Notes under the pieces: generated by a model
What the model saw: the letters and a program-made list of their open reading frames with translations, nothing else
Told to the model about the DNA's origin: nothing
The model's database searches: none
Position numbers and translations under genes: made by a program
Shown here: one piece after another, positions 33,283 through 62,133 of the stretch
How the letters are laid out: each line of letters opens with the position of its first letter
Numbering within the stretch: the first letter of the stretch is position 1
Source of the DNA: Utricularia gibba
Taxonomy: Eukaryota > Streptophyta > Magnoliopsida > Lamiales > Lentibulariaceae
Length of the DNA: 64,000 nucleotides
Direction: 5' to 3'
Assembly: GCA_002189035.1 (NCBI GenBank)
Contig: NEEC01000019.1
Coordinates: 2,079,093-2,143,092 of the forward strand

Positions 33283-35645
33283 ATGGATCTCAAACCTATC
33301 ATTCAGACCCTTCCCTCGTGGTGGCATTCGGTGGGTTTCTTATCACCTCCCCTGTTGTTACTTCCTACCATCGTTTTATTTTTCCAATTCCCTCGGTGTT
33401 TCCAAGTCTGTTTTTCCATTTAGAAAGCCGCTTCACCTTGCGAATGCAGGTAGCTTTGCTGCTGAGTTTTTTTACATACTTGGCTCTTGCCGGATCTATT
33501 CTTCCGGGGAGAATTGTTCCAGGAGTCACACTATCGGATGGGACTCGCCTCTTTTACTGTTGCAATGGTCTGTGTTTTCTTCTCTCTTCTATTTCATTTG
33601 CCGTAGTTTTGGAAAAGATTTGTTCCTTTTCAGGTTTGGCATCTTTATGTTCGTTGGTTTTTTTACTTGGAATTGGCGGCTGGATGGATCTTCTATCTCT
33701 CACGGTAACAGCCTATATCTGTTTTTAAAGCTTGCCTCAATTTATCTAGTGTATCTGTTACCTTCCTAAACTTCAAATCGCCGATGACAAAAGCCACAGA
33801 TAATCCCATGCTTCTGCATTTTCGAGGTTTCTTAAAAGTCTCTTTTATATGATTTCCAGGTAATTGCTGACAATAGTATGGAGCTTTTCTCAGCAGTTCT
33901 AGCATTCAGTATACTTGTAAGAAGCCTCTGTGGTTGCTTCTTATTCATTTCCTTCTTTAGCCGGTTCAGAACCAAATGCTAAGTAGTTTTATTTCAAGGT
34001 GACCATTGCTCTATGCGTAGCCGGCTACAGATCACAAGATAAAAGTTCTTCATTGAAGCCTCGCATCTCAGGGAACCTGATTCATGATTGGTAAAGCAAT
34101 GGGTTTTTTTTTAGAGTATATGCTTAATTTTTTGATGTGGGGGTCTTGCTGGGAGAAGTCCTAACATAATACTTCCCCTGTCCATTCAAAAAAAAATTTT
34201 GATCAGTGCTTTATACGCTACTCATCTCAGTCTACCATCAGGTGGTTTGGAATACAGCTGAACCCTCAGTTCATGGGAATTGATCTCAAGTATGTACGTA
34301 GCTGTAAGATAGTGAATAGCATGAGCATGTGTGTTTAGCTGCTGTGCTAGCTTATTGCGGCCATGTTCCCTTTTCTAGGTTTTTCTTCGTTAGGGCTGGT
34401 ATGATGGGATGGCTGCTCATAAATCTCTCTGTTCTTGCAAAGTGCATAGAGGAAGCCACTCTAAGTGGATCAATGATTCTCTACCAGCTATTTTGTGCCG
34501 TTAAGTCTATATTTTGGCAACTGCCTTCTGGCGTTACATTTTGGTCTTATTTAGTTATTGAGTTGAATGTTGGTGTCATGGATGCAGGTATACATTGTCG
34601 ACTACTTTTTCTTTGAAGATTACATGACCTCCACGTGAGTAGTGCAGTTGCATTGTGGTAGTATCTGAGCCGCATGTTTGCATTCTTGAGTAACGTGGGG
34701 GCATCTTTCAGGTGGGATATCATTTCTGAAAGATTGGGATTCATGCTGGTCCTGGGAGACCTGGTTTGGATCCCATTTACCTTCAGCATTCAGGTATTTT
34801 TCTTGTATTCTTTTGTTTTTCCAGGCTTGTGGAGAAACGCGCTACGCGCTTGGCACACACCTGCAATTCGCTTATCGAGTATTGTTTTTGTCCTGTGCTT
34901 GGAAGGGCTGGTGGCTTCTAAAAAATCAGGTGGAGCTGACGACCATTGGTGCTGTGGCCACCACTCTAGTATTTCTGGCTGGGTAACATTTCATTCTCAT
35001 CTCGTTCTCCTTCTGAGTGTCGTAGCAGCTCTTGAGTTGTAGTTGCTGAGCTCTGAGTTATTGAGTTTCCTTTCCTCCGGAATTGAAGTGGGAGCACTTC
35101 AAATCATGCCTTACATCGATGATTCACATCTGACCTGCCTTTTTGTTTGATGGATCAGCTATCTCGTCTTCAGAGGTGCTAACAAGCAGAAGCATGAGTT
35201 CAAAAAGAATCCCAAAGCACTGATTTGGGGTAAGCCTCCGAGGGTCATTGGGGGAAGTTGCTGGCCTCCGGTTACTGGTAATCACCACTGATCTGAGTTA
35301 GCTCAAACTTCGATCCACAACTGCTCGTAATTATCATTCATCATTTCAGGGGCATTGCAAGGCACAGTAATTATCTCGGGGACTTACTTGTGGCTCTCTC
35401 ACTTAGCTTACCATGTGGAATAAGGTAATTTGGTCACTGAACTGGAACTGGAGGTTGAAGATACCCATGCTAACCCTCGCCTCTGACCCAGCTCCCCGAC
35501 GCCGTACTTCTATCCTGTCTACCTCTTCATTCTGCTGATATGGAGAGAGAGGAGAGACGAAGCCCGATGTGCGCACAAATACAAAGAAATATGGAGGGAG
35601 TACAAGAGACTGGTTCCCTGGAGGATATTTCCTTATGTTTATTAG
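33283..35645 (+). CDS. FK: Delta(14)-sterol reductase FACKEL, with an apparent 1-bp frameshift
   Basis: Thirteen exons: 33283-33330, 33450-33567, 33634-33704, 33860-33916, 33999-34090, 34242-34289, 34379-34499, 34588-34634, 34712-34793, 34906-34982, 35159-35277, 35350-35424 and 35492-35645. The ER membrane enzyme uses NADPH to reduce the C14-C15 double bond in sterol synthesis. Seen: LAGSILPGRIVPGV, GTRLFYCCNG, NLIHDWWFGIQLNPQF, FFFVRAGMMGWLLINLS, DYMTSTWDIISERLGFMLV, GDLVWIPFTFSIQGWWLL, FRGANKQKHEFKKNP, GIARHSNYLGD and the end LVPWRIFPYVY. Several hydrophobic segments span the membrane. Exon 11 has only five G at 35250-35254 where six are needed. As written, the frame leaves the family sequence after VIGG and soon stops. 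With one more base the total is 369 codons, the Arabidopsis length. Either a sequence error or a recent null allele. Confidence 0.92.
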
Positions 35646-37379
35646 AACCCAAAGCGCATGCCGGCTGGGACTCCTTTTCCTTTTCTACTCGAATTTATTC
35701 CAAAGGTTGCTGCTGCAGGCCGAATTTTAAATCTCGTTTCTTCTAAATGCTCCTCCCTTGTGTTTATACCATTGATACCTGAACACTTGCAAACCGCTGA
35801 GTACTTATGGGCGATTTCTTCCATTTCTGTTGCGTGTAACATCAAGGGTTCATTTGAGAAATGATCATCTTTCTCTTACATTATTTGACAAATGGTCATC
35901 ATCTTAAAAATTTCTCATACTTATTATTGAACGCAGCAACTAGATTATGCATATTTAGTTTTTAAAAAAACTAAAAAAAAAAACTATTGTGCATCAATTA
36001 TATTATTAAATGATACATAAAAAAATATTTTTGGGTTAAAAATATTAAATTGAAAGCATTTGAGATAATCATTTTAGATAAATATTTTATATATATATTT
36101 TTAACATTGATTGACTTTGAGAACATTCTTGGGATAATATGAGATATTTATATTAATGTTATTAAGTTATTTTTTTAATATTATATAATTTAAATACAAA
36201 TAATGTTAGATATATCATAAAATAAAATATTAATAACAGAATATCTATGAATATATGGAAATATACAGATAAAAAACATTTTAAAATACATACATACGTC
36301 GATTTATTTCACATTTTATACATTTATTTTAAACTAAATAAATACGAATGATCATTTCTTAAAGATTTTTCAAAAGATGTCTATTTTTTAAATAATGTGA
36401 GAGAGAGTATCATTTTTCAAATAAACTCATAAGATGGATGGATACCAGCAAGTGGGGGTTATATAAATAACAGCTGGATGGCAGTCACCGGGGTGATGCC
36501 ACAAGTGACCGCATCATGGATTGCTTCGTTGATATTAAACCCTGACGCAATATCTCTTGGTAAGGCTTCAAAATAACAAGAAATCATGGGATTCAGAGAT
36601 TATGAAACATTAAAACATACCCATGCTGGGCCTCCCAAACGGGCCGAAGGGATGGGAAATGCAGAGATTTCATTCGTTTGGGCGCCAAGGGAAGGGATGA
36701 ATGGGAAAGGTGAGATTTCTGGATTAGAGCAAGCAGCACTAACAGATTAACAGTTGAGGGTGGGTCTCCTCCGCGTGCTAAGCAGAGTATTCCTCGAATT
36801 TCGTTGTTCTTCTACCTTCTCACCTCTGTGCAAATGTGCCTTTGGATGTCATGTTCTTTTCCACCTCGTAACGGAGAACCCGGAACACAGCTTTTGCAGA
36901 CTACCGTGTCTACGGCGGCAAATTGTACTCCTGGCGGTGGACTGCAGAGGGGCAGGTGAAAATTGCATTGCATGAATTCTGCGCCCAAACCACGATTAAG
37001 ACTAAACATAGATGCATCTTCTGCACTCTAATCACGCATTTTGGGAAGCCCTGAAATTAAGAAAGTTTGGGAGGGGGGTCCCAGCAAAATAGTGGTTAAT
37101 TTGCTGAATAAGGAAGCGGCGATCTTTCTGAGATCCGTTATGACAAGTGATCTTTCCGCAGGATTAGATTTTTCTTTTTTTTTTTCACCATCTCCTTATC
37201 ATCTTTGTGTAGTTAACATCCGTAAGCTTTTGCAGCCATCTGTTTTGTTGAGAAATGAAGATCAATAGAACGGAAGGAGTTTAATAGGAAATCTACAGAA
37301 CAGAGGGCGTAAGAATATTGGCTTTACCTGTTTTACCCGAGGAAGCACAGAGAGCGCATTTCATGGTTGCTGGATTCCT
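35646..37379. other. Intergenic region and probable 5' leader of the ROS1-like gene
   Basis: The stretch 35870-36420 is very AT-rich. From 36590 to 37379 base composition is mixed and likely holds the promoter, leader and perhaps an upstream exon of the DNA glycosylase gene. No independent gene is supported; the 36754-36975 ORF lacks features. Confidence 0.55.
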
Positions 37380-40300
37380 ATGGAGGATGTGCTTCCCAAT
37401 ACCCCCAATCCTATGGAGGATCTGCCTTTGTTGGAATTCCAAAATGCTCAACATAACCAGTTCAATCAGATGAAATCATACAGCATCCCAATGTTACATG
37501 GTGGTCAAAGAAGTAATTGGCTATACAGTAAAGAAGCCAATTGCGATGGTGACATATTACAAAGAGATGCCTCCAGATTATCTTTTCAAGAACTCTTGGC
37601 TTTAGCTGAAGGAGGAAAGACATTCACCTCAACAGGATTTGATACGTCAAGAGATCAGTTTCCTGGTTTCATGAATTTCCAACAGAAAGAACTATACAGT
37701 ATGTCTCAAGTCCCGACCAATAGTGAAGAGGGTTCAATGGACACATGCAGGGCTACAAACGGTAACTTCACTTTTGTGTATGTGAATTGTACTCTGCTTC
37801 TTAATATATACGTTTTTCTTTGAAGAACTAGCTGCGGCACTTGAACTTATGATGCATACATGCTCACATTAACAGGTGGGACATGTGCGGCCAATAGATG
37901 CTTCTTTGATCTAAATTCATTACCCAGAGAAGATGCGAGTGCAGATTCCACGCATGCATTGCTGTGCCTCCCCGAGCCAATAATTCTTCAAGAGAACAAG
38001 GAGAGCGATCAGAAGAACAGATTTGACAAGAAATTTATGGGTGGAGATGAGTCAGGTACAACAAATGATGGACTAGGGCGACTTCAAGAAGCTGAGAACC
38101 CTTCCCAAATAAATGGTCCAATGTCTACTACAAGCGCATCAGCACACTTGCTAGAGAATTACAAGCTGGATAAGCGAAGTACTGAGGAACCACTATTGCT
38201 CAAATCTCCACAACAAAAGCCGAGGAAAAAGTACAGACCCAAGGTCATCACAGAAGGTCAACCTAAAAGAAGCCTGGAATCAAATTCCAAGAATACCGTG
38301 GCTCCTCTGACAAACAGAAAGGATAAATCTCTTTGGCATATAGTAGATATCGAGAAAAGCAATGAAAAGAGCCCTCCTACCTCAGTTTCACTGGTACAGA
38401 AACGGAAGTACACCAAAAGAAAAATTGATGAAGATGGAGGAACAATTCACAAGGTAGACTTAGAGAAAACATCCCCAATCACCAGAAGCTTATGTAGGAG
38501 ATCTCTGAATTTTAACATGGACCATCATGAAAGACATGATAGCTCCTCATGCTGCCCATCTTTGAATATTATTGGAGAATTTAAGGTAGCGAAAATCAGT
38601 GCACTGGAGAAGGATGAATTGGGTAAAAATGGCACGAGGGTATCTCAAGAACTTGGAAACATGTCAAGTCATGAACAGGAAGCTCATCTGAGATATAAGC
38701 AGCAATCCTCAGGCCAAATGGATGGGAAAACTATTCATGACAGCTTTTTCACAGAGGAGCAAGTTCAAAGATTAAAAAATGACAAATCCAATGAACCAGA
38801 AACCTGCAACAAAAACAAGACAGGAATATTCTATGATACATTGCAGACATATCAAAAATCCTTACAGGCAGGCCTCCCCACTCTTTCAAAGAATAATGGA
38901 GATTCCAGAGGACAGCATTCACTTCAAACCTGTAAAAGGAAGAGAACTGAAAACACACATACCTTGAAAGGATTATCAAAGACTGGATACAGACCTGACA
39001 CTCAAAGTCTGGGAGACTCTAGTGCAAACCTCATCACATCGATCATGAATCCCAAAACTTCTGGAACTCATTATGATTTGGTTGATGCTTCAGGAAAGGC
39101 AGAGCAAAAACTTCAATGTATCTATGCATCTGATTGCACTCTGATGATTAAAAGAAAGAGATCTAAATGTACAACTCGCCGGCGGGATTTAGCTTCATTA
39201 ATGTTCTGTAAGGAGCTACCAGCATTACGGTGCAGTGCAGAAAGTTCTGTAGGAGGACAAGAGATTCAAACATTGCAGTCACCACCTGCATGCATGGAAG
39301 CGATTGTGTCGCTTACTCAACCAAAAATACAGAGAAAGAAGCGAACAAGAAGGAGCATGCCCATCAAATCAACAGAACAATGTCTCAGCGGTCATGAAGG
39401 CCCTGTAATAGGCATAAAAGGTATTTTCATGCAATGAAACGACGAGATAACTTTAGCACTTGGTGCATATATCCTAGCACATGCTTGATGCGTTCAAATG
39501 CAGGTTGGCCACTTGCTCTTACATGGAATAGCATGTTTCCATGCAATACAATTATTCAGCAGGTTCGACACCTAGATCTAAAGGCAAAGGAGAGGCAAAC
39601 CTCGATTCATCAACAAGATTCACACTCCCTTGTTCCATATAAAGGATCCAGAGCAACTGTTCCTTTCAATAATTCATTTGAAGTAATGAAACAGAGACTG
39701 AGGCCAAAGGTTGATCTTGATGAAGAGACAACAAGAGTGTGGAAACTTCTGTTAGAAAACATAGACAATGAAGGGATAGATGGAAGTGACGAGGAAAAAG
39801 CAAAATGGTGGGAAGAAGAGAGAAGAATCTTTGATGGAAGAGCAAGCACATTTATTGCACGAATGCATCTCGTACAAGGTACACTGTTATAAAAATACTC
39901 AGTTTTCAATCTCCAACTATAAGGAAGAGATATGCAATGCAGTCAAAGATACATGTAACAATGTGTTGCAGATATATCTAATTCTTTCCTCTACAGGAGA
40001 CCGGCGTTTTTCTCCATGGAAGGGATCAGTTGTTGACTCAGTGGTTGGTGTTTTCCTCACCCAGAATGTTTCGGATCACCTCTCAAGGTTGGCTGGGATT
40101 CTTAATATCACATGCTGTAACCAGCTTAATTAATTGTCGACTTGGAATAAAAAACTAAGCATATTCAACAATCAATGCAGCTCTGCCTTCATGTCAATGG
40201 CTGCAAGATTCCCCATTTCACAAAGTGCAGACGTACCAGAATTACATGAGAATCACAGCAAGATCAACTTATCTGGGGCTCTTGTGTTAGATCCTGATGG

Positions 40301-43300
40301 AACATATGGCTTGACCAAAGATATTTCAGATCACTCTATTTACTGTGACGTAGCAGAAGCTCATCACCAGTCTAAAAATAAGGAAATGGGAGAACTCAGC
40401 GTCAAGTCTAATGGTCACACGTTGAATGGACTCTTTCTAGAAGAGGCAGCTGATAACTTGGAATGTGAGTGGCTTCCATCCCTCGAAGCCGTACCAAGAA
40501 AGTCCACAAATTTTATCGAGGATAATAGATACACGAATTCTTCCCAAAACTCTATGGCATCGCCAACTGGACAAGCTACAGAAAAAAATGGTCCCCTTTT
40601 TGGCAACCATGAAGGAACACATCCTGCTAAACAAGATAGAAGCCGCAGCACTGTTTCTCTAGAAAACCTTATGCAGAGGACTGAAAACATATTGCAGGGG
40701 AGCCACCTGAAAGAAAGCTGCAATGAAATCTCCAATGAAAATGGGGGATTTCTAACAGTAAGAGCAGTGAGTTTAATGAGCACAGTGACGGCCATTTCAT
40801 CAATCAGACATCTGTTGCAACAACGATTTCACTATCAAGTCAGTCCTTTTTATGTGATTATTCCACATCAGACACACAAACAAGAGAGAATTTTCAACCC
40901 GAGGAGAGGGTGAAGGATCATAAAAGGCTCATGGATAAGGAATTTAGCACAGCCGAAGCAAGTGGATTATCTTCAGCCCTTACCAGATTTGGGTCAAGGA
41001 AATCAGTTATGCCAAAACATACTGGGAGTGAAACACCAGATTTTACAGATGGCATGAGGAGTGGCAAGTACATTAATTTAGAGAACAAGGAAGTTAGGTC
41101 AATGGGGAGTACTGATCCCAATAAGGAAACCATGCCAGATAAGAGACACGCAGATGGCCGTCGTCCTAGTGCAGTTTCCAGACCTAAAGACAAACAAAAA
41201 ACAGTCAAAGAGAGAGAAATATGGGAAGCACTTCGAAAGAAGGCAATCGCCGAAAGCAAGAGGAGCGCAAGAAGATTCAATACAAATGACACAGTTGATT
41301 GGGATGCTGTGAGATGTGCAGATGTTAATGAGATTGCTCAGGCTATCAAAGCAAGAGGAATGAATAATAATCTGGCAGAGAGAATCAAGGTTTTGATGAG
41401 CTATTAGTACAACAAATGAGATTGCTCAGAGAATATGATGTCTAAAATACGTATTCACTTTATTTTGTAGGAATTTCTCAACCGTCTTGTACGAGAGCAT
41501 GGAAGCATTGACTTGGAATGGCTTAGAGACATTCCACCAGACAAAGCCAAGTAAGTTTAAAGCTTTCTCAGCTTTGGGGCTCCTAAACAAAACCCTAAAT
41601 GCTCTGCCATTGGTATCAGGGAGTATCTCTTGAGCTTTAGGGGTCTTGGCTTAAAAAGCGTGGAGTGCGTGAGGCTCTTGACTCTTCATCATCTTGCCTT
41701 TCCTGTAAGATAAATCTTTCCTCCACATCAGTAATAGACTATAAGACAAATTCACTAACATGGATGCAAATGCAATACTTAAAAAAGGTTGACACCAATG
41801 TCGGCCGGATAGCAGTCCGATTAGGATGGGTACCTCTTCAGCCATTGCCTGAATCACTCCAGCTTCACTTATTAGAACTGTGAGTAATCTTCAGCTAATG
41901 CCCACAACAAATGGCAGCAGGCATGACAACTATAACTTTTTGTGGCAGGTACCCAGTTTTGGAATCTATACAGAAGTATCTCTGGCCTAGACTCTGCAAG
42001 CTAGACCAAAAAACACTGTTAGTACACTGTAAAATCTTGCAATATGATTTTTTTTACATTAATTCATATTTTTTCATCACAGATATGAGCTACATTATCA
42101 GATGATCACCTTTGGGAAGGTAAGTCCCTGCGGTTGAATATTTTAACATTCCGGGAAAACATAAGAATTACATTTTGATTTCAAGGTATTTTGCACAAAG
42201 AGCAAGCCAAATTGCAACGCATGCCCTATGAGGGCAGAGTGCCGGCATTTTGCAAGCGCTTTCGCAAGGTTTGCATGCATTTTATTATTTTAAATATATA
42301 TTATAGCGTATTATAAAGGCAAAAGAAGACATGCACACGTATTTGAAACGGCTTAGACTAATGCGCACCACACTTTATCTTCCTAAATTACATTCAAATC
42401 ATAAACAGAGAAGTTTTTCTACCTCCTGTGCAAGATTCACATAACATTTTACACTTGTAAATATTTCACCTAATGGAAATGTGTATGCAGTGCAAGACTT
42501 GCTCTGCCACGACCAGAGAGGATCAGAGAAGTATCCTTAACAGAGAGCAAAAAGAATGAACACATGGGAAATCTGCATTTTTCTCAATTACCTTTCATTC
42601 AGTATGATCAATCAAATTGTCACTTAGGCGCATGTGAGCCTATCATTGAAGAACCACCATCTCCCGAGCCTATTGCTGAAATGTCAACCACTCCAGAACC
42701 TAACTACCATGCAGAAGTTTGTCAATATGACAATGAAAAATTTCTGGATGATGGTGCGTATGAGATCCCCATAATACAGTTGAATATAGAAGAGTTCACT
42801 CAGAATTTGCAGAAGATTGTTCAGCAAAATACAAGACTGAAAGAGGGTGAAATGTCCAGGGCATTAGCTTTGGTAGCTTTAGCCTCAGACACTGCTTCTA
42901 TTCCTATTCCAAAACTCAAAAACGTGAGAAGACTTAGAACAGAACACCGAGTGTAAGTAATAGACCTCGAGACAATGTGTCGTTGTGAAGTATACAATAC
43001 ACTTCAATAAATCGATCATGTTAACGTTTGACCCTGTACTTGTATTATTTCTCTGATTGCAGTTATGAGCTTCCAGATTCACACCCTCTTCTGCAAAAGG
43101 TTTCGTACCTTAAATTTCCAGCAGCATGTATTTAATGGATGTTTCTTACACCAGTTCTTTTCTTCTGCAGATGGACAAACGAGAACCTGATGACCCTTCA
43201 CCTTACCTACTTGCCATATGGGCTCCAGGTAGGCACAAAGGGTAAAGGTTAGCCTTGCCTAAGGCGAATAATGGGGCTTTCAACGACACACAAAGATTTC

Positions 43301-44360
43301 AAAAGAAAAGATCTAATGTGCCGAATCCTCTGCATAGGTGAAACTGCTAATTCAATTGAACAGCCACAGAAGAAGTGTAGCTCCAGAGATTCGGAGAAGC
43401 TTTGCACAGATGAAACTTGTTCATCATGCAATAGCATTCGAGAAGCAAGCACTCAGACTGTAAGGGGGACTATTCTGGTATGCAATTAATCGTCAAAACC
43501 AGGTTTAATCAATTTGATATAACAATTTAAAAAACTCTGTATGAGCCATCTCATTAATCTTAGATAACTCACGCAGATACCATGCAGAACAGCTATGAGA
43601 GGAAGCTTTCCTCTGAATGGAACATACTTTCAAGTAAATGAGGTAACACGGTCTCATAAGCCCCTTTCATAAGGAAGATCAAGAAACTTAAGTCTCGGCT
43701 TTAATGACCGCGTGCGTGCTTCTTACCCAGGTGTTTTCAGACCATGATAGTAGCCTATCTCCCATTGAGGTTCCACGAGACTGGATATGGAACTTACCAA
43801 GAAGAACAGTTTACTTTGGGACATCGGTAACTACTATATTTAGAGGTAATGCTAACCCATAACCTCAGGCACCATAGATGAAACCTTAGTCCGAACTCGA
43901 GTAATAAGTTATCTTTACCTTTCTTTCTGTATAGGCCTCTCCACAGAAGAAATTCAATACTGCTTCTGGAGAGGTACGTTTATACTGCAATTATTTTTGG
44001 AAGCAACCACGGAATTACATTAGGAGCAGCTAAATGAAACCGCATGATACACATCCACGTGAAAACGAAATATCACACCATTTAGATCAATTAGTTCATT
44101 CTGTGAATAATTATGATGTCAATAGATTACACCTTTCCAAAGTGAATCTCCATGCCTATTCGAAATACTAGTCCACTCTGCGTCATGGCATTTCCTATCA
44201 TAACTGTTATCTTATTTTCCCAGGTTTCGTATGTGTTAGAGGATTTGACAGGAAAGAAAGAGCACCACGTCCTCTGATTGCTAGACTACACTTTCCAGCA
44301 AGCAAGTTAACAAAAAGCTATAAAAAGAGCGAGGATGACCAAAAGATGGACGTAACCTAA
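37380..44360 (+). CDS. ROS1: 5-methylcytosine DNA glycosylase/lyase, ROS1/DEMETER family, with an apparent 1-bp frameshift
   Basis: Nineteen exons: 37380-37761, 37876-39420, 39504-39878, 39997-40087, 40181-41389, 41471-41550, 41620-41704, 41788-41879, 41949-42017, 42083-42119, 42186-42268, 42491-42952, 43063-43099, 43171-43228, 43338-43477, 43577-43642, 43731-43845, 43935-43973 and 44224-44360, about 1700 residues. The enzyme removes 5-methylcytosine and demethylates DNA in the nucleus. Seen: lysine-rich KKYRPKV region, RPKVDLDEETTRVWKLLL, WWEEERRIF, GDRRFSPWKGSVVDSV, FLTQNVSDHLSSSAF, helix-hairpin-helix FRGLGLKSVECVRLL (catalytic K) with VDTNVGRI (catalytic D), and the iron-sulphur cluster C-x6-C-x2-C-x5-C in FCTKSKPNCNACPMRAEC. 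The C-terminal domain has RTEHRVYELPD, GTILIPCRTAMRGSFPLNGTYFQVNEVF and RLHFPASKL. Exon 5 changes frame at the five-G run 40743-40747; one more G joins both halves. The start is uncertain (see findings). ROS1 is favoured over DME by sequence and context. Confidence 0.94.
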
Positions 44361-47450: not shown

Positions 47451-47962
47451 TCAGCAACTCTTTTTTAGATGTTGCTACTGCTGTCGATTGAGAGGGCCTC
47501 CCTTTCTCAAATGTCTTCTTTTGGCTCCCACCAATGTGAAGTTGAGGCATGGGTATTACCACCTATGGGTTTCTTGGAAAATGCTACTATCCACCAAATG
47601 AAGCTACAACTAGTATCATTGTTGGCATTGCTCCTTTGTTTTTCATAATGAGTTTTGTTGTTGTTTGCTTCATCCTTGCCATTCAAGTCTTGATTCTCAA
47701 GCTAGTTGTCCGTAAGTTAGAAACTAGAAGAAGAAAATGGGACCCAATGCACATTTGTCATAATGCGTAGGGTTTGAGCAACTTCCTCTCCCCTGATTCA
47801 AGCAAGATCTTTTGAAGGGACTTCAAAAATAGGTTGTCACCTCAAAAAAACTTTTGGTGAAGTTTCATTGTGACGCCAAAATAATGTGGCAAAATGCGAA
47901 GCCCTCTTATCATGCCTCAATATCCCAAAGCTAAGTGAAGGTGGACTCTTAGTTAGTGGCTC

Positions 47963-48225
47963 ACAGTTTAATGAAACTATTGAGGCCACAGTCTGTGGTG
48001 CACCTCGAATGCCTAAAGATGCGAGCACCATAATGGCATGTATTGAATACTTTTAAAAAAAATTAAAGATGCAAGCACTATAATTTTGTGTTTGTAGGCT
48101 TGCAGCTGGAATACCTTTAAACAAAAGAATTAAAAGCATGAACATCATAATAATGTGTTTGCAGTGCTTGCATCTTTAGGCATTCAAGTTGGTATTTACA
48201 GTTTAATGAAACCATTGAGACCCTA
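47963..48225. repeat. Paired direct and inverted repeats
   Basis: The word CAGTTTAATGAAACTATTGAGGCC near 47965 recurs with three changes near 48199. Between these copies TGCCTAAAGATGCGAGCAC (about 48010) faces its near-perfect reverse complement GTGCTTGCATCTTTAGGCA (about 48165), and further copies of AAAGATGCAAGCAC lie between them. The layout resembles a small foldback or MITE-like insertion, but no target-site duplication was established. Confidence 0.5.
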
Positions 48226-49104
48226 CTTTGGCGTGCTTACACGTGAAATGCTTCCATGTATCCAAGCAAGGGTCATGAGAAGTTTTTTTTATTGTATTAA
48301 AAATATGTACATCAACAAATTGAATGGAATTGTATTTTTTCATATCATCACACTCTTCCAAGTTTTTCCTTGTGCTTGATGCATTGCTCCAATCCTCCAA
48401 TATATTTTCATACAATTTAGACTCATTTGTTGAAAAGTTCTTCTACATCCTAGTTTTTAGCCATGATATATCCTAAGCAATATGCTCCTAAACCCATCAT
48501 GTTCCAAATTTCTACCACAAATAAGTCTGAGTTTCGTGAGATTTGTTCCAAGATTAACGAAAGTTCTCCAATAGAAATCATTTGCATAACTTGGTTGCTT
48601 TCATTATCGAGATTTTTTTAGTGATTCCTGCTGTTCCACCCTTGACTTCTCACATTTTACTGTATCGCGTACTGAAGCTTGATTCTTAGATATGTGTAGG
48701 ATAATTTCTTTCATATTGTGCGGATGTTTTTGAGGAAGATATTTGAACTAAATGCTAAGCGTTACAACCACCACCCATGGACCTTCTCCTTCGGCTGAAG
48801 AGATAAGTCTGCTCTTGTGGGCCAGTTTCCATTAATCATTCTGGGGAAAAAAAAACATTTCCCCTTCCTAATCAACGACGGAGAGGAGGAATGCGTGGAT
48901 CTGTACGTGTGGACCTCATCGCCACTCCCATGCAATGTTCTTTAGCGTCCAGAGCTACAACCAATCGCGGACAGTCACCCAAATGAATTCTTGGATGTGG
49001 TGTGGACAGTCACCAAAATGAATTCCCAGTAATGATATTTATTAGGTATTGAAAAGAGTAAAACCTTTCCAATAACAGAAAAAAGGTGGGATCTTGGGAG
49101 GAAA

Positions 49105-52100
49105 ATGGTCTATACACTGCCTGAGCTGAGGCTCTCCATTTTGCCATCGCTTTATGGAAGAGGGAACAACGGATTGAACCCACATAGTGGCCAAGGGAAT
49201 TCCTTGATTGCTTTGCTCGTGAAGAATAAATCCGATTCAGGTAATCGAAGGCCACCTCTGTATGGGTTTTTATACTCGCTGTTTAGTTTTCTTTGTGGCA
49301 CTATCCTTTCAAACCATCGAATGTTTGCTCTCCACGGCTTTTTTTGTTTAATTCGCTCTGTGTATTTCACGTTCTTGTTGATGGAAATTGGAAATCTAGA
49401 ATGCCTTGAAAGCTACAAGTTGACGATATTATACTGAGGTTATTGAAAAAGGTTTCATTGATTAAACGAATGTAAAAGCCATTTTGATCACAAATAGAGG
49501 TGTATGTCATTGGTTTCTGTTGGATATGAATTGTCATCACCAACCGGTTTGGCAGAAGGCCTGGCATTCTCAAAACAAGATTTCATGAGTTGCGCACATT
49601 CTATGTAAACATGGATTGTGTAAACTTCATTAAATACACAATGGGAAAGCTGTTACACCAACCAAGCGCATAGAGTTTGATTGGGGAAGGGCACTTGGCA
49701 CCCTAGTTTTTGGATTTTTCATGGCTTACATTTAAGGAAGTATCACAAGTGGGAAAATGTTGGCTGAATCAGCTGATATGTTCCTTGTAGGGAAGATTTT
49801 TTGTGGGAAGCCTAATGAACCCAGATCACCGTTTTCAAGAGCAACCAGAGGAGAGAAAATCATTATTCCTGGATCCAACAATGCTGACTCCGAAGAGCTG
49901 GACATCCCTCAGATAGTTTCTGATAATACTCAGGTATGAATGTCAGAATTGTCAATATGTGATAATGTAAAATTGAACGCAATAGAAAGATCTGAGAATC
50001 TACCAGTTAAAAAGATGAAGCAGTGGTTTCGTTTTTTCTTTTTTGTGTCTGTGAGAGTGCATTCTGATTTCTACAATCATATTGTTTGTGCTCTTTGATT
50101 TTTATGTTTCCAATCGTTTTTCATTCTAGATATTTGACGATAAACAAAGATCAGATATGGAAAATGGAAAGGAAGTTCAAGGTCAAGAGGTCTTGGTCGA
50201 ACAAATCAGTTCAGACGAAGTAATGAAACTAGATGATCCTACCTTGATACAACCAGTAGATGGACATGCGGAAACTACTGTTGAAGGAATGCCAGGTATT
50301 ACAGAAAAGCCACGAAATGAGGGTTCCTCAAAAATTAAACTGGCCATCCCTCCTCCTGGAAATGGGCAGAGGATATATGAAATAGATTCAATGTTAAGGA
50401 ACCATCATGATCATCTTGATTATCGGTAAACTTTTTCACCTTATTCATTAGCAGAATATACATTTACTTTCCATATATCTAGAGAATTTGAAAATGTTGA
50501 CCATTGTATCATGAGCGGAGTTAATCTATAAGTATTATTGTTATTTTAACAGATTTAGTCAATATCGAAGACTACGTGAAACCATTGACAAGTTTGAGGG
50601 TGGGTTGGAAGTGTTTTCACGTGGTTATGAGAAATTTGGGTTTACTCGGAGGTATGCAGATTATGACATATATCTCTCCTTAAATCAAATCTCAGCCTTG
50701 AAACTGAGAAATCTTAATCTATATTTCTTTGTGTGTTACTTTGCATTTTTCTGTGCATTAAATACTATTCTGGGCCCAAAGTACAGCCTTTGTCTGCAAC
50801 TTTTGAATGTTTATGTGTTTGCAAATAATACTGCCGCTAAGGCATGCATTTCTCTTTATTAGTCCTTTGCAAGAAATATGATAAGGACTTCATGAATGTT
50901 TGCTCTAGGTTCTTTTGTAAGCCACTTAACAAAACAAGCATGTTTTACCCATCCATTAGTATTTATTTGGTACTATTTTTGTGGTTAAGAAAGACATTAG
51001 AATGATTCGCTGACAAGGCTAGTAGTTTGCCTTGATCGACCTTGATATGTTGATGATGGTTTTGATCTTCCTTGATAAACTGCTCTTCGTTTTATTTACA
51101 TGCTGCTGGTTCTTTCTGGAATATGATACTTTTTAGTCATCATTTGATTCTATATTATCACATGGTTGGAGAAGTACTTTACTTTGTCCTTATCACTGAG
51201 TGAGTTCTTATATTGTTAGTGAGGCAGGCATCACTTACAGGGAGTGGGCGCCTGGAGCAAAGGTCAGACGCAACCTATCCTTTTGGTTCCATGTGTCAAT
51301 GTAGCTTTTGTAGAAAAATGGTCATCACCTTTTCATTCAAGTAGCAGTTTTTGCTTCATGCCTCAAACTGTTCTTAGGCTTTCTTTGTGAAGTCAAGAAG
51401 TTGCTATATATGTTACTGCCAATCTTGGTAGAGTTGTTTATTGTGGTCCATCAACTTCAGACTTCTTTCCTTTTCTGATGTATATCATTACAATTCTTGC
51501 AGTCTGCAACTCTTATTGGTGATTTCAACAATTGGAATCCTAACACCGATGTCATGACTTGTGTAAGATTAAATTTTTCGTCAAACTTTAAAGCTTTTGT
51601 GCCTATATTTGTTACCGTCCTGTTTTTTTGTTGGAATGTTGCTTGGCTATCATTCTTATTTGCTGATAAGATAATAACAGAATGAGTTTGGCGTTTGGGA
51701 GATCTTCTTACCAAATAATGCAGACGGGTCTCCTGCAATTCCCCATGGATCTTATGTAAAGGTAAATGTATTCTACTGGAGTAGCTTCCATGTATTTTCT
51801 TCCTAAAATCAAAGCTTTATGATATTTTCCTTGAGAGCTTGAACCACTTTGCTCACTTCATTGTATGCAGATTCGCATGGAGACTTCATCAGGCATCAAG
51901 GACTCAATTCCAGCTTGGATAAAGTTTTGTGTTCAAGCTCCAGGAGAAATTCCTTATAATGGGGTTTATTATGATCCACCAGAAGACGTGAGTGTTATGT
52001 CTCTGCTGTTCGTAAATTGCACTTTGGAACAAATACAAGGTCTATGTATATTGGAATGAGGCATCAAAATTAAAAATTAGAAAAAGTTTATTTATCTTTG

Positions 52101-55100
52101 TTTTCTTCTCCTTTGTAGGAAACTTACACCTTTAAATACCCGCGTCCAAAAAAACCAAAGTCACTCAGAATATACGAGTGTCATGTTGGAATGAGTAGTA
52201 CGGTATGTGTCTTTCCTCTCATGCGATTTACTGAAAGTTTTTGTCATTGATTTGTTAGCAGCTTCTCAGATGCTTCTTAAGTTGTTTCCAGCATTTCCAT
52301 GTTCAATGCATATGGGCAGCTTGTTTTGCTTTAAATAAACATTTCCTATTTAGTTTTGTAAAATATGTTGATATACATCTATATGTCTTCATCGTGAATC
52401 TTGTAATTCAGGAGCCCGTTATCAATACATATGCCAACTTTCGTGATGAAGTGCTTCCACGTATCAAGAAACTTGGCTACAATGCTGTTCAAATTATGGC
52501 AATTCAGGAGCATTCATATTATGCCAGTTTTGGGTAATTTATTTATTCATGAATATCATTTTTTTTTTGTTGGTCATGCTTGAGGTCTCATTCTTTTTTA
52601 TATGCATGCTACTCACACAGCTGTTATGCAGCTTGCCATTTTCTGCATAACAGGAAGAAAGCGAATTTTTACATTTCCTTGTCATATTTTTTTAGATCTT
52701 CCACGCTATATCTAGCTGCAAAAAGGAAAATCATTTTTATTGCATTTGGTGCAGTTACCATGTGACAAATTTCTTTGCGCCAAGCAGTCGCTTTGGGACT
52801 CCTGACGATCTTAAGTCATTAATTGATAGAGCGCATGAGATGGGCTTGGTTGTTCTCATGGACATTGTGCATAGGTTAGCATAATTTGAAAAATGGAAGC
52901 ATATTTTTGCTTCCCAATATTCACCTTTTTTGTGAATATTTTATGTGACTAATTTGTCATGTATCTAGCGAATGAATTAATGCTTTTGATATTTTCAGTC
53001 ATGCTTCAAACAACACTTTGGATGGCTTGAATATGTTTGATGGTACCGATAGCTGTTATTTTCATTCTGGACCACGGGGTTACCATTGGATATGGGATTC
53101 ACGGACTTTCAACTATGGACAATGGGAAGTATGTGCTTTACACACTGGATTTGAGGTTGTTCAACAAATTTTCATTATTACTGAATTTCGTAATTGCAGG
53201 TTCTAAGGTTTCTTCTCTCGAATACAAGATGGTGGTTGGAAGAATACAAGTTTGATGGTTTCAGATTTGATGGTGTTACATCTATGATGTATACACACCA
53301 TGGTTTGCAGGTATTAAATCCCTGTGCAGATGAAGTTTCAAGTTTCTTCTAACCACATCTGGTTGAAGATTGTATCCATGTCTACTGTTTGAACTTCGAG
53401 TTTGCAAAACAAAATTGTGCCTGCTGTAATATTTTCTTTGATTGTACAAAGATGGCATTTACGGGAAACTACAATGAGTACTTTGGATTTGCAACTGATG
53501 TTGACGCTGTAGTCTACCTGATGCTGGCCAATGATCTCATCCATGGGCTCTTTCCTGATGCTATAACAATTGGTGAAGATGTAAGCTTCAATGAGATTTT
53601 ATATATATAGCTCCTACCATTTGATGTTTTTTTAACTTGTTTATATCCATTACTGTTCAGAAACTTGTGACCAGGGTAACTAAATAACACTTGTAATCTC
53701 AGGTCAGCGGCATGCCAACCTTTTGTATTCCTGTTCAAGATGGCGGAGTTGGGTTTGATTTCCGTTTACACATGGCAATTGCAGACAAGTGGATCGAATT
53801 GCTCAAGTGCTGTCTCGTTTACTGTGATAATTAATACACCAGAAGCAATAACTAATATAATGAGATCATTTCTATTGCAGAAAGAGAGATGAGGATTGGA
53901 AAATGGGAGATATCGTGCACACTCTTACTAACAGAAGGTGGCTTGAAAAGTGTGTTGCTTATGCCGAAAGTCATGACCAGGCACTCGTTGGAGATAAAAC
54001 TATCGCATTCTGGTTGATGGACAAGGTAGCTTAGATATGTTACTCCAAACTAGACTACTCCTTGCTGATGGATCTTTTTCTAGGATATGTATGACTTCAT
54101 GTCATTGGATAGACCATCTACACCTGCCCTAGACCGTGGAATAGCCTTACACAAAATGATCAGGCTTATTACAATGGGTTTAGGTGGGGAAGGATACCTA
54201 AATTTCATGGGAAATGAATTCGGCCATCCAGGTATTGCATATTTTGCAAGATTCCAGAGCATCTCACACCAGTTTCCAGAAAGTGGTCGTACTCTGTCAA
54301 GAATGAATTGCCATTTGCTTCTTTATGTATCAGAGTGGATTGATTTTCCAAGAGCCGATCAGCGTCTTCCTGATGGCAGATTCATTCCTGGAAATAACAA
54401 TAGCTTTGATAAATGCAGGCGTAGATTTGATCTGGCAAGTTGTGATATTTGTGTTGTAGTTAGCTTTTTTTACTGTTACTGTTTACTCGGGGCTTTTTTT
54501 TATGTGTTTTCTTGTTGTCCATTCAGGGTGATGCACCTTATTTAAGGTATCATGGAATGCAAGAGTTCGACAGAGCAATGCAGTATCTCGAAGAAAAATA
54601 TAATGTGTGAATTTCAATATCTCAACTCAAGGAATAATTGTTGTTCAAGACTTCTGTTGGCACTCATATAACTTCTTCATGTATTTGTTCTTGCAACAGT
54701 TCATGACATCAGAACATCAGTACATATCAAAGAAGGATGAAGAAGATAGAATTATAGTGTTTGAAAGGGGCAACTTAGTTTTTGTGTTCAATTTCCATTG
54801 GAATAATAGCTATTCAGATTATCGTGTGGGCTGCTTAAAGCCTGGAAGATACGAGGTATGGCTTATATTAAGAAATCATCTCTGATTTGATCCAAAATTT
54901 TCACCATTCGCTTGCAGATTGTCATGGACTCAGATGATGCTCTTTTTGGAGGCTTTGGTAGAATCGGTCATGATGTAGAGTACTGCACCAGCGTAAGTGC
55001 CTGTAGGAGGTTCAAATGAAACTGCTGTATCATCTAACCGTTTTTTTGGTTACGGCATTAATCGTAGCTCATGTGTCTACATATTTGATTTAGAGTGTGG

Positions 55101-55216
55101 TCTCATGAATGAATGTGATGCGTGTACAGGAAGGGTGGTACAATGACCGGCCTCTGTCATTCATGGTTTATGCACCCTGTAGAACAGCAGTAGTGTATGC
55201 CTTGGCTGATGAATGA
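49105..55216 (+). CDS. SBE2: 1,4-alpha-glucan (starch) branching enzyme, class A / SBEII, chloroplastic
   Basis: Twenty-two exons: 49105-49240, 49791-49933, 50130-50425, 50553-50651, 51220-51262, 51503-51562, 51681-51761, 51871-51987, 52119-52202, 52412-52533, 52755-52874, 52999-53128, 53200-53310, 53452-53580, 53703-53806, 53881-54025, 54084-54231, 54334-54434, 54527-54604, 54700-54855, 54918-54992 and 55130-55216, 854 residues. It makes alpha-1,6 branches in amylopectin. The N-terminus (about 1-50) looks like a plastid transit peptide. Seen: CBM48-like YREWAPGAK and [11 protein letters not shown]13 motifs [23 protein letters not shown] (nucleophile D), [11 protein letters not shown] (acid E) and AESHDQ; then NEFGHPEWIDFPR and CRRRFDLGDA. 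It ends AVVYALADE. The intron after 54434 starts with GC (CTG/GCAAGT); all others I placed are GT-AG. The frame is open throughout. Confidence 0.96.
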
Positions 55217-56311
55217 AGAGAGATAGCGAGAACTCTCTACTCGGGCCTCGCAGTCTGCATATCTGTCGTCGATGGTTGAACTCACTGTAGGGCGGCCAGC
55301 ACCTACAGAGAGGAATCAAATGAGGGGGATTCATTCTCCACATCCCCTCGTCGCAGGTTTTTGTTCAGACAGCCTTTTCCAACTCCATTTAAGTTCTGGT
55401 CTGGGGTGTCTCAAGTTGTCCTTGAATGTATCTCCGTATGCTTTCAAATAATGTGGCGACAGTTGGCCATTAGGGATTGAAGGTTTTGCGTATGATTTAG
55501 CTTCATCGAAGCCGCTGATTCCCTTGAACATGCTTGCAAAAAAAAAAAAAAAAAAAAACTACAGAAACAATGATTAATGGTGTCGTGATGAAGTGCATTG
55601 GTAGGATCAGCTCGTGAGCGGGTGGATCCTTGTGCATGTCCTAACGTCGGTAACCGAGGCCGCTGCGATACAACATTTCACTCTTCCCCTACAAGTAATG
55701 GTATCCCTATCATCATGGTCTCAACGCAACTGTGGTTATGTTTTGCATGCGTTCTTACTCTTATTCTTACAAAACATCATTATTTTTCATTTTACAGAAT
55801 CACAAAATAAAATTTTTATTAATGATATTTCAATGGAACATGGGTTACTTGTTAATTTTAGATTTTTATTCTTACTCTAACAAAATTACTTTCATAATAC
55901 TCCTTTTCCTTTGTTCATTTCAACTCATTTCTTCAAATTACTTTACTCGTTTTTCGTTTCTAGCATTTCTAGGTTAATCAATTCATCAGTTCGTTGGGAT
56001 ATTTTAATTGTTGCTGATTCATTTTTTTATTGTGTGAATTATTTTCATTTTTTATCAAGATGTTGATAGTCGTTCATAAAAATACCCACTCTTTATTTAT
56101 GTTTCACACACTAAGTACACAAAATTACGCACACCATGATTAATTTTTTAACATAACCTTCTAAAAGTGAGTATTTTTCAAAATCACCACATGTTTGAAT
56201 GGTTAATAAATATTGAATATTATGCCGGCCGGCCTATGCATTTAGGACCCTAAATGCAACAACTCGGAGCTTCTGGAGATAAGGTAGGTACACCATGCCC
56301 CTAGCCTGCTA
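55217..56311. other. SBE2 3' flank and ZPR 3' flank
   Basis: Convergent gene ends. A run of about 20 A lies at 55538-55558. The stretch 55740-56220 is A/T-rich with chance ORFs in overlapping frames. No gene is supported. Confidence 0.55.
55538..55558 (+). repeat. Poly(A) tract of about 20
   Basis: A homopolymer A run about 320 bases beyond the branching enzyme stop codon. It could be simple slippage or the tail of a retroposed sequence; no flanking target-site duplication was recognised. Confidence 0.8.
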
Positions 56312-56554
56312 CTACCTTATCTCTTTAATATCAGTCATCGATTGTTTTCTGGTGTGGGGTTTTTTGGGAACCGATGAAGAGCCGGAGAGGATGAGATCGG
56401 GAATGGGGTTTCCCGCTGCAGCAAGGCGCTGTTTGAGCTCGTTGAGAAGGGTCTGATTCTCCTCGTTCAGCATCCGCGCCTTCTTTTTAAGCCTCTCATT
56501 CTCGTGCATGATGTAGCAGTTTGACAAGTACAGCTTCGAGTTAAACTTCTCCAT
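56312..56554 (-). CDS. ZPR3: LITTLE ZIPPER (ZPR) microprotein, ZPR3/ZPR4-like
   Basis: An 80-residue ORF from the ATG at 56554. It begins MEKFNSKLYLSNCYIMHENE and continues RLKKKARMLNEENQTLLNELKQRL, a leucine zipper of about 30 residues very like Arabidopsis ZPR3 (MERLNSKLY start). Little zippers lack a DNA-binding domain and pair with the zippers of HD-ZIP III factors, forming inactive dimers; HD-ZIP III in turn activates ZPR genes, giving a feedback loop in meristem and leaf polarity control. The C-terminal extension (LSGSSSVPKKPHTRKQSM) is serine-rich and basic, with no recognised domain. An intron acceptor (TTATTGCAG) sits two bases before the ATG, so the leader is spliced and the whole protein lies in the last exon. 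Confidence 0.9.
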   Translation of the reverse strand: MEKFNSKLYLSNCYIMHENERLKKKARMLNEENQTLLNELKQRLAAAGNPIPDLILSGSSSVPKKPHTRKQSMTDIKEIR

Positions 56555-57037
56555 ATCTGCAATAACAATTCCAAACAAACAAATAAGGATCCCATTCTCA
56601 ACTGCATATTAAGCTTCTGCTCACAAGAGCCTGAGGGATAAACTGGGGGTGACCAAATTGGAAAACAAATTCGGTACACGCGAATTTTTAAATAAGTGCG
56701 CTCTGAAAAACAATAAAGAGACCAAGCAAATATAATATAGAAGGTTCCATATTCAGAGAAATGAGAACAACGTTATTTTTCAAAAGACAGAGAAAACCCT
56801 CTGTCCAGAGGAAAATCTCAGGGTATGCATTTAGCACTGTTCAGAAGGCAGGGGAACCCAACTGCCGCCTTATCTTCTTCTATCTTTGTTGGGTTACAAA
56901 GAAGTATCACCTTTTCTAAGAGAAGGTGACGACCACCCGATCAACCGAAGGTGAATCAGTGGAAGCGTTAAATTTAAGTACAGGAGTGTGTGTGTGTCAT
57001 GTGATGATACAGGCGCGGAAGAGCAGGGGGTTGGCCT

Positions 57038-57047
57038 GTTTATATAG
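57038..57047 (-). promoter_or_regulatory. TATA box of the ZPR gene
   Basis: The minus strand reads CTATATAAAC, an excellent plant TATA box, about 490 bases upstream of the ZPR ATG. This leaves room for a leader of about 60-150 nt, an intron ending at the acceptor next to the ATG, and no other start. Confidence 0.55.
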
Positions 57048-60000
57048 CGCATAAAGCTGGAATATCACATAGAACACGCGCACATGCACGGTGCTATTAT
57101 GTGTTTTAAGTACATACATATGCTTCATTGGATGCACTACCACGCCCACAGTTACAATTAGTGTCACATGGAGGACAAAAGAAGAGGAAGCGCAAGATGG
57201 AAAAAGGTGGGGAAATCTGCAAAATCATGCATGCGTACGCATGTAACGGAAGGGGGCGGGGATGTTCATGTTTTGGAAGTCCCACCTTTACTCTGTATGT
57301 CATGATGAGCCGTGGCTTTTTTTAGGAGAGAATGGTGGCCGTGAAGGGTGTTATCGGTGTTTCGTCATGCGCCTTAGTGTAGCCTCGGCAAGCGTCGGCC
57401 GGGCATAGTTCGGTAATGATGGTTCGTGTCGGTCGGAGCCAACAGAAGTGGGCCCTCCTAATGGATTCTTTTTTGTTTTATCCATCGACTATCTGGACGT
57501 CCACATTGCCTATATTTTTATCAGTTTTTTAATCGCATATTCAATCAAAAAATAAGTATAAAAAAATGGTGAGCTGCAAATCATTAGTTGGATCCCATCC
57601 ATTCCCCATTGTGTATTCAATACAGGAAAATGCGGTACCCCTGCCCTCTGTTAGTGATCCATTGTATTGTCATAATTCGATTGGATACGTTGCTTGTGCA
57701 TTGCTTAACACCGACTTAACTATTGATCCATCAGACAATCAGACAGGCTGAATACGTCTGCCCTCTCCTGTTGATTAATGATACGCCGTGATTTCTCGTT
57801 ATACTTCCCATATGAAACTTCTCTCCACAAGATCGATCGATGTCCATGCAATTGCTCTGCCCCTGCCTTGTGTGAGCGGTGGCGTTTATGCCAGCTCACT
57901 AGTGTTTTGGGTAAAAATATCAGAGGAAACGGAAAAGAAGTCGTGAGTTGAGCATGCCATTTATCATGCTCGCCTTTTGGAAATAATTCACATCCATTGC
58001 GTTGCCAGCACCATCATCACTATCAACGTGACCAAAGCAAGGCTGTTGGAAGGATGTGCTTTAAACGGAAGCGATGGGAAGGGAATGAGGACATAACACG
58101 TATAACTAACTGGAGTCTGTTGATAATGTATGGGTTAAATGTCTCATGAAATCACTAAAGAGGTGCTATCCCCTTCACAGCCTCCATTTGATTGAAGCCT
58201 ATTTATACTTTTCATTTTAATTCCCCTATCTTATATTGTTTGGTAGCTATAAATCTACAGTTTTTATTTAATTGAATCATTGAAAAAATAATAGTTTATG
58301 TCATTATTTTCTCTTTCACTTCAATTCTTTAAATTCAAATTAGGATCATCACTCCCATTATCATTTTCACTTGATACTTCATCTATATAATATACTTCAT
58401 TAATTCACATGTCATCAATACCATAATCGTTATTAATATCCTTAATATGATTATTATATTGTAAAATATCCATTATAATTTCAATATTATTTTGCAATTC
58501 TTTTCATCGTTTTTGCAGCAGAAATTTGTTAAGATTTTGGGCCTGTTCCATGTACATAATTTATGAATTAATTCTGTTTAATTTTTTAAAATTCTAATCT
58601 TTAACAATTATATAATAAAATAAAAATTATGATTGTATGATTAAATTGAAAAATTATTGAATTTATTAAATGTCTTTTTTAATGATTAAAAATTAATTAA
58701 AATTTTTTATTTTAAGGATAGGAGCATTATGATTATGTCTAATTGCACCTTCCCCAATTACGACACGTTGTTCTATTTCCCATCATTTAAATGGAGGAAG
58801 TTGGGAACATTTCTATTCTTCTTCATACAAATTCTTCAAACTCTATGACACTCTTGTGAGGCTTCTGGAAATTTTGAATTTCCAGTTCTAAGGATTTTTG
58901 TTCTTTATTTTTCAATCCCCATATTTCCTCGAGGCATTCTCAATTCCTTCCTAGCATTCATCTTATGGTGCCTCAATATATATATTTTTATTTTTTTTAA
59001 TGTAATTTAAAAATATATTTATCTTATAATATTACATTATTAAATATATAAATATAAATATAAATATATTCTATTTTATTAAAAAATATAATAATCTATA
59101 AAAATAGTTTTAAAATCTTAAAATTAATTTTATTTTAAAAAATTCGAAGCATGATTTTACACAGCAATCGTTACATAACACACCCTTCTTTTGGCCTTTG
59201 GTTGCAAACATTTCGTTATTCAGTTCTATCTCCAGTTGTTTGAATTTCATTTGATTGGTATTGCTAGGTGTTACAGGGAATTGTGTTGGTGTTGTCAGTT
59301 ACTCCAACCACATTGGGTGTTCATGCATTCTCTGTTCGTGAAATGCTTGCGGCTGCGTTTTTATTTAAAATTGAGTTATTAGTGAAATGCACATTTCTTC
59401 TTCCACTGCGTTACTAATTTCTTGCTCTACTATCTATGTCAGATTTTCTGCCGGAAACAATTTCAGTCCATGGTGATTTTTCTGATGCGCGCTGTCGTTT
59501 ATCGTGTGAAACTAGTTTTCGATTGAGATTCTCTTACCTATGGCGCAGTTGATATTCTCTTACCTATGCCTCTATCCTTCATTTTTTCTTTTCTCTTATG
59601 TATATATATATTTCTCAATTTGGTTGTTCCATCTTAACAACATTAGAAAATGCGTTTTCCGTTCCTTCAAAACCACACAATTTCTTCGTTTTCTTTTAAC
59701 TGTGCAGGGACTGTACGGATTCATAATATGTCAACATCACTGAAAATGACGAAAGAACAAAGCACTAGTGGGTCGACTCACGGGACATTAAATATTTATG
59801 AAATTTTAGTTAATGCCTACATTGTTTTATAAACCAAGATTCAATCATGTTAAATCACTTTGATTTATGAGCGGTTTTAGATAATGGTTACATTAAGTTT
59901 CAATTGTTTTAAAATTAAAAATTCTAATTATAATTTACTCAAATTCAACTATAATTTAATTATGATAATATTTTTAAAAAAAATTGTGAAAAAAAATATG

Positions 60001-60255
60001 AATCATGGTTTAATCCTTACAACTATGAAACCTTAGTTTTTTTTCACAAATTAAAACATGGAATTGCTAAAAAAAAAAAAACGTTCTTGGTGAATGTGAG
60101 ATGCGTGCGTTTGATGTATTAAAAAAATGTTCTTGGTGAATGTGAGATGCGTGGCGTTAGATGTATTAAAAAAACGAATCTGTGAGGTAGCGAGTTCGGC
60201 CACGCAACCGTCTATTTATTGAAGACAAGCGTCCTGCTGATTGCAGATAAAAGAG
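57048..60255. other. Intergenic region between divergent ZPR and P450 genes
   Basis: The stretch 58150-59160 is strongly AT-rich. ORFs at 57106-57325 overlap on opposite strands, and 59191-59832 have no family features. A 46-bp tandem duplication lies just before the P450 gene. No gene or RNA supported. Confidence 0.55.
60083..60174 (+). repeat. 46-bp tandem duplication upstream of the P450 gene
   Basis: Two adjacent copies starting GTTCTTGGTGAATGTGAGAT at 60083 and 60129, each ending in GATGTATT plus an A run. They differ by one inserted base (GCGTGCGTTT against GCGTGGCGTTA) and few others. The duplication ends about 80 bases before the P450 start. Confidence 0.85.
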
Positions 60256-62133
60256 ATGTCGAATTTTGCGATAGTCTCCTTGCTCACCCTGTTCCTGGTG
60301 TGGTTATGGCAAGTTTTCAAGTTCACTTGGCTGGAGCCAAAGCGCGTGGAGGCGCTGCTTCGGAAGCAAGGCTTCAAGGGAAACAAATACAAGTTCTTGT
60401 TCGGAGACACTGAAGAGATCAAACAGATGTACGCCGACGCTCACTCCAAGCCTCTCGGACTCAAATCTGACGTCGTCCCTCGAGTCATGCCTTTTGTTCT
60501 GAAAACAATCAACAAATATGGCAAGCTTTTTACCTGAAAACATTTGCTTTTTTTGAAATTTCGCTCTGGAGTGAGTGATGTCGTTCTTTTATTTCTTTTT
60601 GGTGTTGTCCTAACAACACACGCAGGCAAGAACTCGTTCGGATGGATCGGAGTGAGGCCGAGAGTCTACATATCAGACGCTGATCTTATGAGGGAAGCTT
60701 TGACGAAGCATATGAATTTCCAGAAGAATTTCAGGGTCACCAACAAGGTATACAAGCTTCTCGTTGGTGGAATTGTGGAGTTCGAGGAGGAAAAATGGTC
60801 CCGTCATCGAACCAAACTGAACCCAGCTTTTCACCTCGACCGCCTTAAGGTGCTCTGTTCTTCTATCCAATCATGATCAAAATTGAGTGATAGGGTTAAC
60901 TTAACAACAACGACTGATTGCAGCATATGTGCCCAATAGTAGTTTCTTGCTGCGAAGACATTCTCTCTGACTGGAAGAAGAAGATGAAAGACGGGTCTGG
61001 CGTCGTTGACATTTTCCACTACCTCGAGGCCTACACCGGGTCAGCCGTGACGAGAGCTCTCTTCTCCCATCCATACGACGCAGAGATGAAGAACTGTTTC
61101 CATCTTCTCAGAGACCTCTCCCTCATGGCCAACATCGCCGTTAGGACCTTCGATATTCCGGGAACAGGGTAAGCAAACTTGGCATATGCAATAATAGAAG
61201 CAAAATAGCGGCTGACATTTACTTTTTCGCTTTTAGGCTGCTGCCGACACCGTTGCACAGAAAGGCGAAGAAAATGGAAGCTGAGGTGAGGGCAAGTTTC
61301 AGAAGGATGATTGACGAAAGGATAGCGAAGAGAAGAGGAGGAATATTTGACGGTAAGGGAGACTTGTTTGATCTTTTCATAGACGACTTGTATGACGAGA
61401 GCAGATCCAAGGAGGCTGATGTCGCCGGAATCATCGACGACGCCATCGGCAATTGCAAGCTCATGTACTTCGCCGGCTACGAAACGACATCAAATCTCCT
61501 TGTCTGGACCATGGTGAATCTCGCCATTTACCCTGAATGGCAGGATCGTGCCAGAGAAGAAGTTTACCGCGTCATCGGGAGGAAGAAAAAAATCCAGCCT
61601 GATGAAGTCAGCCAGCTCAAAATCGTGAGTTTCTAATTCAATGTGATAGCATAATATAGCCCCAAATCGCGAGATTGTTGTAGTTGGCTTCTGATGGTGC
61701 AGATTAACATGATTCTCCACGAAGTGCTACGTCTCTTCCCGCCGATATTTGAGCTTTCCCGCGTGGTGGAGGAAGACACGAAACTGGGTCCTTATGTAAT
61801 TCCAAAGGGGATACTGATCCAGCTTCCAATTGCGATGCTTCATCGTCAGAAGGAGATTTGGGGGAAGACGCGGGAGAGTTTAAGCCTGAGAGATTTGCAG
61901 AGGGGATTCTTAAGGCGGCGAACGGGCAAGCTGCACTGATGCCGTTTGGATGGGGCCCGAGGATTTGCTTAGGACAGAACTTCGCTATGATGGAGTCAAA
62001 GATATTTGTGGCAACGCTGCTTCAAACCTTCCGATGGGAGTTTTCGCCGGAGTACATCCACGCGCCTTACGCTGCTTTTACAATTCAGCCCCAGCACGGT
62101 GCACCCCTTATCCTCCATGAAATTGAAGCCTGA
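60256..62133 (+). CDS. Cytochrome P450, CYP72 clan (CYP72A-like), with an apparent 1-bp frameshift
   Basis: Five exons: 60256-60520, 60626-60849, 60924-61168, 61237-61624 and 61703-62133, about 517 residues. It is a membrane-anchored haem monooxygenase; CYP72A enzymes act on terpenoids and hormones, substrate unknown here. Seen: N-terminal anchor (FAIVSLLTLFLVWLW), NKYGKNSFGWIGVRP, FQKNF, the I-helix FAGYETTSNLLVW (usually AGQETT), EVLRLFPP (ExxR), FKPERF and the haem loop FGWGPRICLGQNF with the cysteine ligand. Intron 1 uses a GC donor (TATG/GCAAGC). In exon 5 a five-G run at 61860-61864 shifts the frame between KEIWG and EDAGEFKPERF; one more G restores it. Read literally the protein would lose PERF and the haem loop, so it is either a sequence error or a dead copy. 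It is the last recognised gene before the telomere. Confidence 0.9.

Follow-up and report, generated by a model that had tools for sequence, protein, structure and literature searches.

Three genes at the end of one Utricularia gibba contig lose their reading frame at a GGGGG run on the plus strand, and the question this raises is whether the genes are broken in the plant or only in its assembled sequence. The window, by which we mean the whole 64,000-nt stretch analysed, is the end of contig C142 in an assembly of 100.09 Mb and 516 contigs, and it is closed by TTTAGGG telomere repeats. The first-pass annotation had ascribed the three breaks to a systematic undercall of six G as five. The runs are indeed present at 35250-35254 in an FK-like Delta(14)-sterol reductase gene, at 40743-40747 in a ROS1/DEMETER-like glycosylase gene and at 61860-61864 in a P450 gene, and the frame change in each amounts to one missing base (with an intron as the alternative in the ROS1-like gene). 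We regard it as very likely that all three arose as errors in the consensus of an assembly made from long reads only, in which a G or C run called one base short would throw an intact gene out of frame.

The P450 carries this argument, as the same sequence was assembled twice. In the window its translation runs to ...HRQKEIWG and continues as DAGEFKPERF in the next frame, and the match to the P450 family profile (Pfam PF00067) follows one frame to profile position 378 and the other from position 379, with the switch exactly at the five G of the W-G-E-D motif (61860..61864, plus strand). When the last exon was used as a protein query, we obtained two broken pieces in the window and one unbroken match of 99% identity in C169, a small redundant contig of 17,222 bp. 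C169 repeats the telomere-proximal end of C142, window 51016-63016 and probably more. Over the stretch duplicated by C169:4200-16200 (51016..63016, plus strand), the two copies differ by 0 substitutions and 8 indels in 12,006 aligned columns. Where the P450 of the window has five G and a broken frame, C169 has six G and an unbroken translation, KEIWGEDAGEFKPERF. The only other difference between the two copies of this gene lies in the preceding exon, where the window has seven A and is in frame (61586..61592, plus strand), and C169 has eight A and is broken. Moreover, in a neighbouring starch-branching-enzyme-like gene, two exons that are in frame in the window, near positions 52412 and 53881, are broken in C169; in a stretch of no recognised coding sequence, a G4 run of the window (57258..57261, plus strand) is read as G5 in C169. 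Consensus error is expected to break the copies of one sequence at different places, as seen here, and that the P450 lacks a base through such an error is, in our judgement, practically certain.

A second redundant pair behaves in the same way. C376, of 29,640 bp, is redundant with a part of C413 (C413:5384000-5413999), and a comparison of some 24.8 kb gave six substitutions and 17 indels, each of one base in a homopolymer; 13 of the 17 are in G/C runs, yet A/T runs are far commoner there. One P450 has five G and an open frame in C413, and four G and a broken frame in C376. Thus a longer run with an open frame is found in an independent consensus in both pairs (C169 for the window, C413 for C376). 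Separately, we observed that 8 of the 17 indels fall within the terminal 2.8 kb of C376, which is the shorter copy each time, as would be expected if coverage is low near the end of a contig. It might be argued that the redundant contigs are haplotypes differing in homopolymer indels, with the broken P450 as a true allele, since homopolymers mutate faster than single bases and the C376/C413 pair does contain six substitutions. However, this would leave 0 substitutions against 8 indels in the 12 kb shared by C169 and the window, P450 breaks at different runs in the two copies, and two additional breaks in the starch-branching-enzyme-like gene of C169, and we consider two real alleles very improbable.

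At the FK-like gene the position of the break is equally well defined. The exon that contains the run (35159..35277, plus strand) is unbroken through ...KPPRVIG at the five G (35250..35254), and the next frame then gives KLLASGYWGIARHSNYLGD, the translation after the run reading KLLASGYWG; the following exons (35350-35424 and about 35490-35645, plus strand) continue in that post-run frame, as judged from translations and alignment. If a single unknown residue is placed where the two frames meet, the last 167 residues of the protein can be aligned throughout to 4quv, a Delta(14)-sterol reductase (E 4e-52), and we looked for further breaks in these 167 residues and found none besides the G5 run. 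A search of the assembly for a second FK copy found only this one. The error class, the conservation on both sides of the run and the sole copy found together make it highly likely that a base is missing here too through assembly error, and we infer strongly that the break has the same cause as that in the P450.

The ROS1-like gene is the least certain of the three, and less certain than the first-pass annotation believed. Its domain A lies in frame 0 and its glycosylase domain in frame 2 of a single long exon, a difference that calls for either a missing base or an intron. Stop codons bound the frame change to 40739-40913, a variable linker between the domains that the alignment to solved ROS1 chains stops short of, and codon scores favour about 40743-40800, the first third of this interval, beginning at the G5. 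The run at 40743..40747 (plus strand) is therefore, by stops and codon log-odds, the likeliest site. As G5/C5 runs are frequent (40 in the 64 kb window), a G5 within a 175-nt interval is weak evidence by itself. The claims that the frame is lost at the five G and that a sixth G restores conserved family sequence thus stand for the FK-like gene and the P450, where conserved sequence pins the codon, and reach no further than the 175-nt interval and its variable linker for the ROS1-like gene. A second copy of the linker was searched for in the assembly and was not found.

The intron would be an unrecognised one of 86 nt at about 40758-40843 (plus strand), and the gene would then lack no base at all. 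It has a strong donor (ACA|GTAAGA), a length of 2 mod 3, an AG acceptor at 40843 and a neutral composition log-odds that expresses no preference. On the other side, 40758-40843 is open with a coding-like score in the downstream frame, the pyrimidine tract before the candidate acceptor is poor, and all eight of the eight reference introns tested have a more intron-like composition. We therefore do not favour the intron, which we consider unlikely though more plausible than the other alternatives weighed here. A base missing through assembly error remains the probable explanation, and we infer it with moderate confidence for this gene, whose break may share its cause with that in the P450. Should the break in the FK-like or the ROS1-like gene be real, the plant would have lost or truncated the only sterol C-14 reductase found, or a DNA demethylase gene; that at least one of these two breaks is real seems to us quite improbable.

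How often such errors arise could be measured without reads, because small redundant contigs such as C169 and C376 supply a second consensus. Pooled over both redundant pairs (36.9 kb), G/C runs differed between copies in 1 of 2108 cases at length 2, 6 of 478 at length 3, 4 of 113 at length 4 and 4 of 23 at length 5, or about 1% per pair of copies at three, 4% at four and 17% at five, rates that are possibly too high for primary contigs as redundant contigs may be below average in quality. A/T runs of length 3-7 differed in 2 of 1521 cases. The errors in these pairs are mostly of one base and lie in homopolymers, chiefly of G/C; they become more frequent as runs lengthen, and substitutions are few. 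If half of each redundant-contig rate is assigned to either copy, the roughly 18 kb of coding sequence (an estimated length) should contain about three one-base G/C losses, and three observed breaks are therefore ordinary for this assembly. Their shared assembled length of five and their shared location in plus-strand genes reflect chance together with the higher error rate of longer runs.

The same lesion was found elsewhere in the genome. We surveyed P450 genes at 30 loci from a Pfam search and in twelve further regions, mostly picked for a truncated match, and counted a frame switch only where it left no room for an intron. Twelve clear frameshifts were identified on other contigs (one each on C505, C244, C1, C4 and C413, two each on C2 and C412, and those at loci L017, L019 and L021), and all twelve were the loss of one base, on both strands, at assembled runs of one to six. 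For eleven of them a G/C run of at least 2 stands at or next to the break; the second break on C412 has a single G there. Where conservation located the break, the missing base is mostly a third codon position, so that its identity as G or C is taken from the run; in the C505 break A is as possible as C, and in the C4 break C is as possible as G. On C412, C413 and C4 the broken genes lie on the minus strand, and the contig shows the complementary runs. Two of these P450s, at C412:1908500-1911500 (L056) and C413:1826500-1829500 (L058), are broken at the W-G-D/E (W-G-x-D) motif like that of the window, and an intact P450 on C1 (L024) has six G at the same motif; being encoded by a G-rich run, the motif is a recurrent spot for undercalls. 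In addition, among BAHD acyltransferase and UGT genes, 9 of 10 frame switches that leave no space for an intron belong to the minus-one class, as read from match coordinates only and not from the bases themselves. Unrelated genes are therefore affected genome-wide, the P450s on both strands and the BAHD and UGT genes by sign of the switch. The frame switch of one P450 (L012) was ambiguous and was left out of the count, and a gap at another (L052) was rejected as a frameshift, being a proper intron.

These results change the scope of the undercall originally proposed. It stands as an artefact, given the six G and the open P450 in C169, and it does not stand as one specific to G6 read as G5, since short G/C runs of other lengths are hit as well. 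A run length of five is not general, as the lesion elsewhere strikes assembled runs of 1-6; nor is the plus strand, as minus-strand genes elsewhere carry it. The statement that the minus-strand genes of the window are all in frame was examined for one of them, the DUF3475/DUF668 gene at 28049-29656. The remark that longer G runs occur in the window was correct (32 G5, five G6, one G7 and one G12 on the plus strand), and the existence of G6, G7 and G12 runs means that shortening of longer runs is not universal. In general, short G/C runs lose one base in this assembly, the more often the longer the run and irrespective of strand.

Two biological explanations of the breaks have to be weighed against this. 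At least one of the three genes may truly have lost a G and become a pseudogene, as G runs mutate by slippage and the P450 family is large, with many paralogues, so that loss there is cheap; true frameshift pseudogenes likewise show a single-base frame loss in a gene that is otherwise conserved. However, such a pseudogene would carry its lesion in every copy, and the P450 is open in C169; it would be expected to decay further, and no further decay was seen in the P450 or in the C-terminal 167 residues of the FK-like gene, whose examined coding sequence is intact apart from the run. Sterol synthesis requires this gene, of which no other copy was found. Moreover, every other P450 break removes a single base at a G/C run, unlike real decay, which mixes signs, lengths and bases. 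Nearly every resolved case here is a one-base loss in a G/C run, with the other contig's copy unbroken, and real pseudogenes are accordingly most doubtful. Programmed frameshifting or transcript slippage could in principle restore the proteins from genuine five-G genes, as runs of at least 5 G can be slippery. Breaks elsewhere at assembled runs of only one to three bases argue against this, as does the second P450 copy in C169, which simply has the extra G, and we find it hardly credible.

Consensus error in G/C runs, which we prefer to all of these, is a known feature of such assemblies. The window probably belongs to the PacBio genome of Utricularia gibba that was assembled with HGAP, for which a review gives 88x PacBio coverage and a contig N50 of 3.4 Mb (PMC5793159). 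For the bacterium Streptomyces albus SM254, assembled with HGAP and Quiver at 262x, short reads fixed 205 leftover indels, and G or C homopolymers accounted for nearly all of them (PMC4832174). The two genomes are alike in one-base length errors concentrated in G/C runs of a PacBio assembly; those of Streptomyces albus SM254 were fixed with Illumina reads, whereas those of U. gibba remain and are revealed by its own redundant contigs. The breaks are thus biologically ordinary, and their error class has already been reported for HGAP/Quiver PacBio assemblies. Even so, single-base losses in G/C runs can falsify gene-loss, pseudogene and annotation claims made from this assembly, in which twelve P450 loci carry such a break (eleven and that of the window).

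When the composition of the window was characterized, we observed an excess of G over C runs of at least 5 on its plus strand (39 vs 8, two-sided binomial p 6e-6, clustering ignored), compared with 64 vs 80 in 168 kb from elsewhere. The C169 copy has no C-run differences, and the excess therefore does not look like a strand-specific error. Genome-wide pattern counts of exact G5 and G6 runs were set aside, as nearly all G5 places listed fell on one strand, whereas four slices of the same contig, read directly, were unbiased. The sole Rfam match in the window is a tRNA gene at 22547-22619 on the minus strand.
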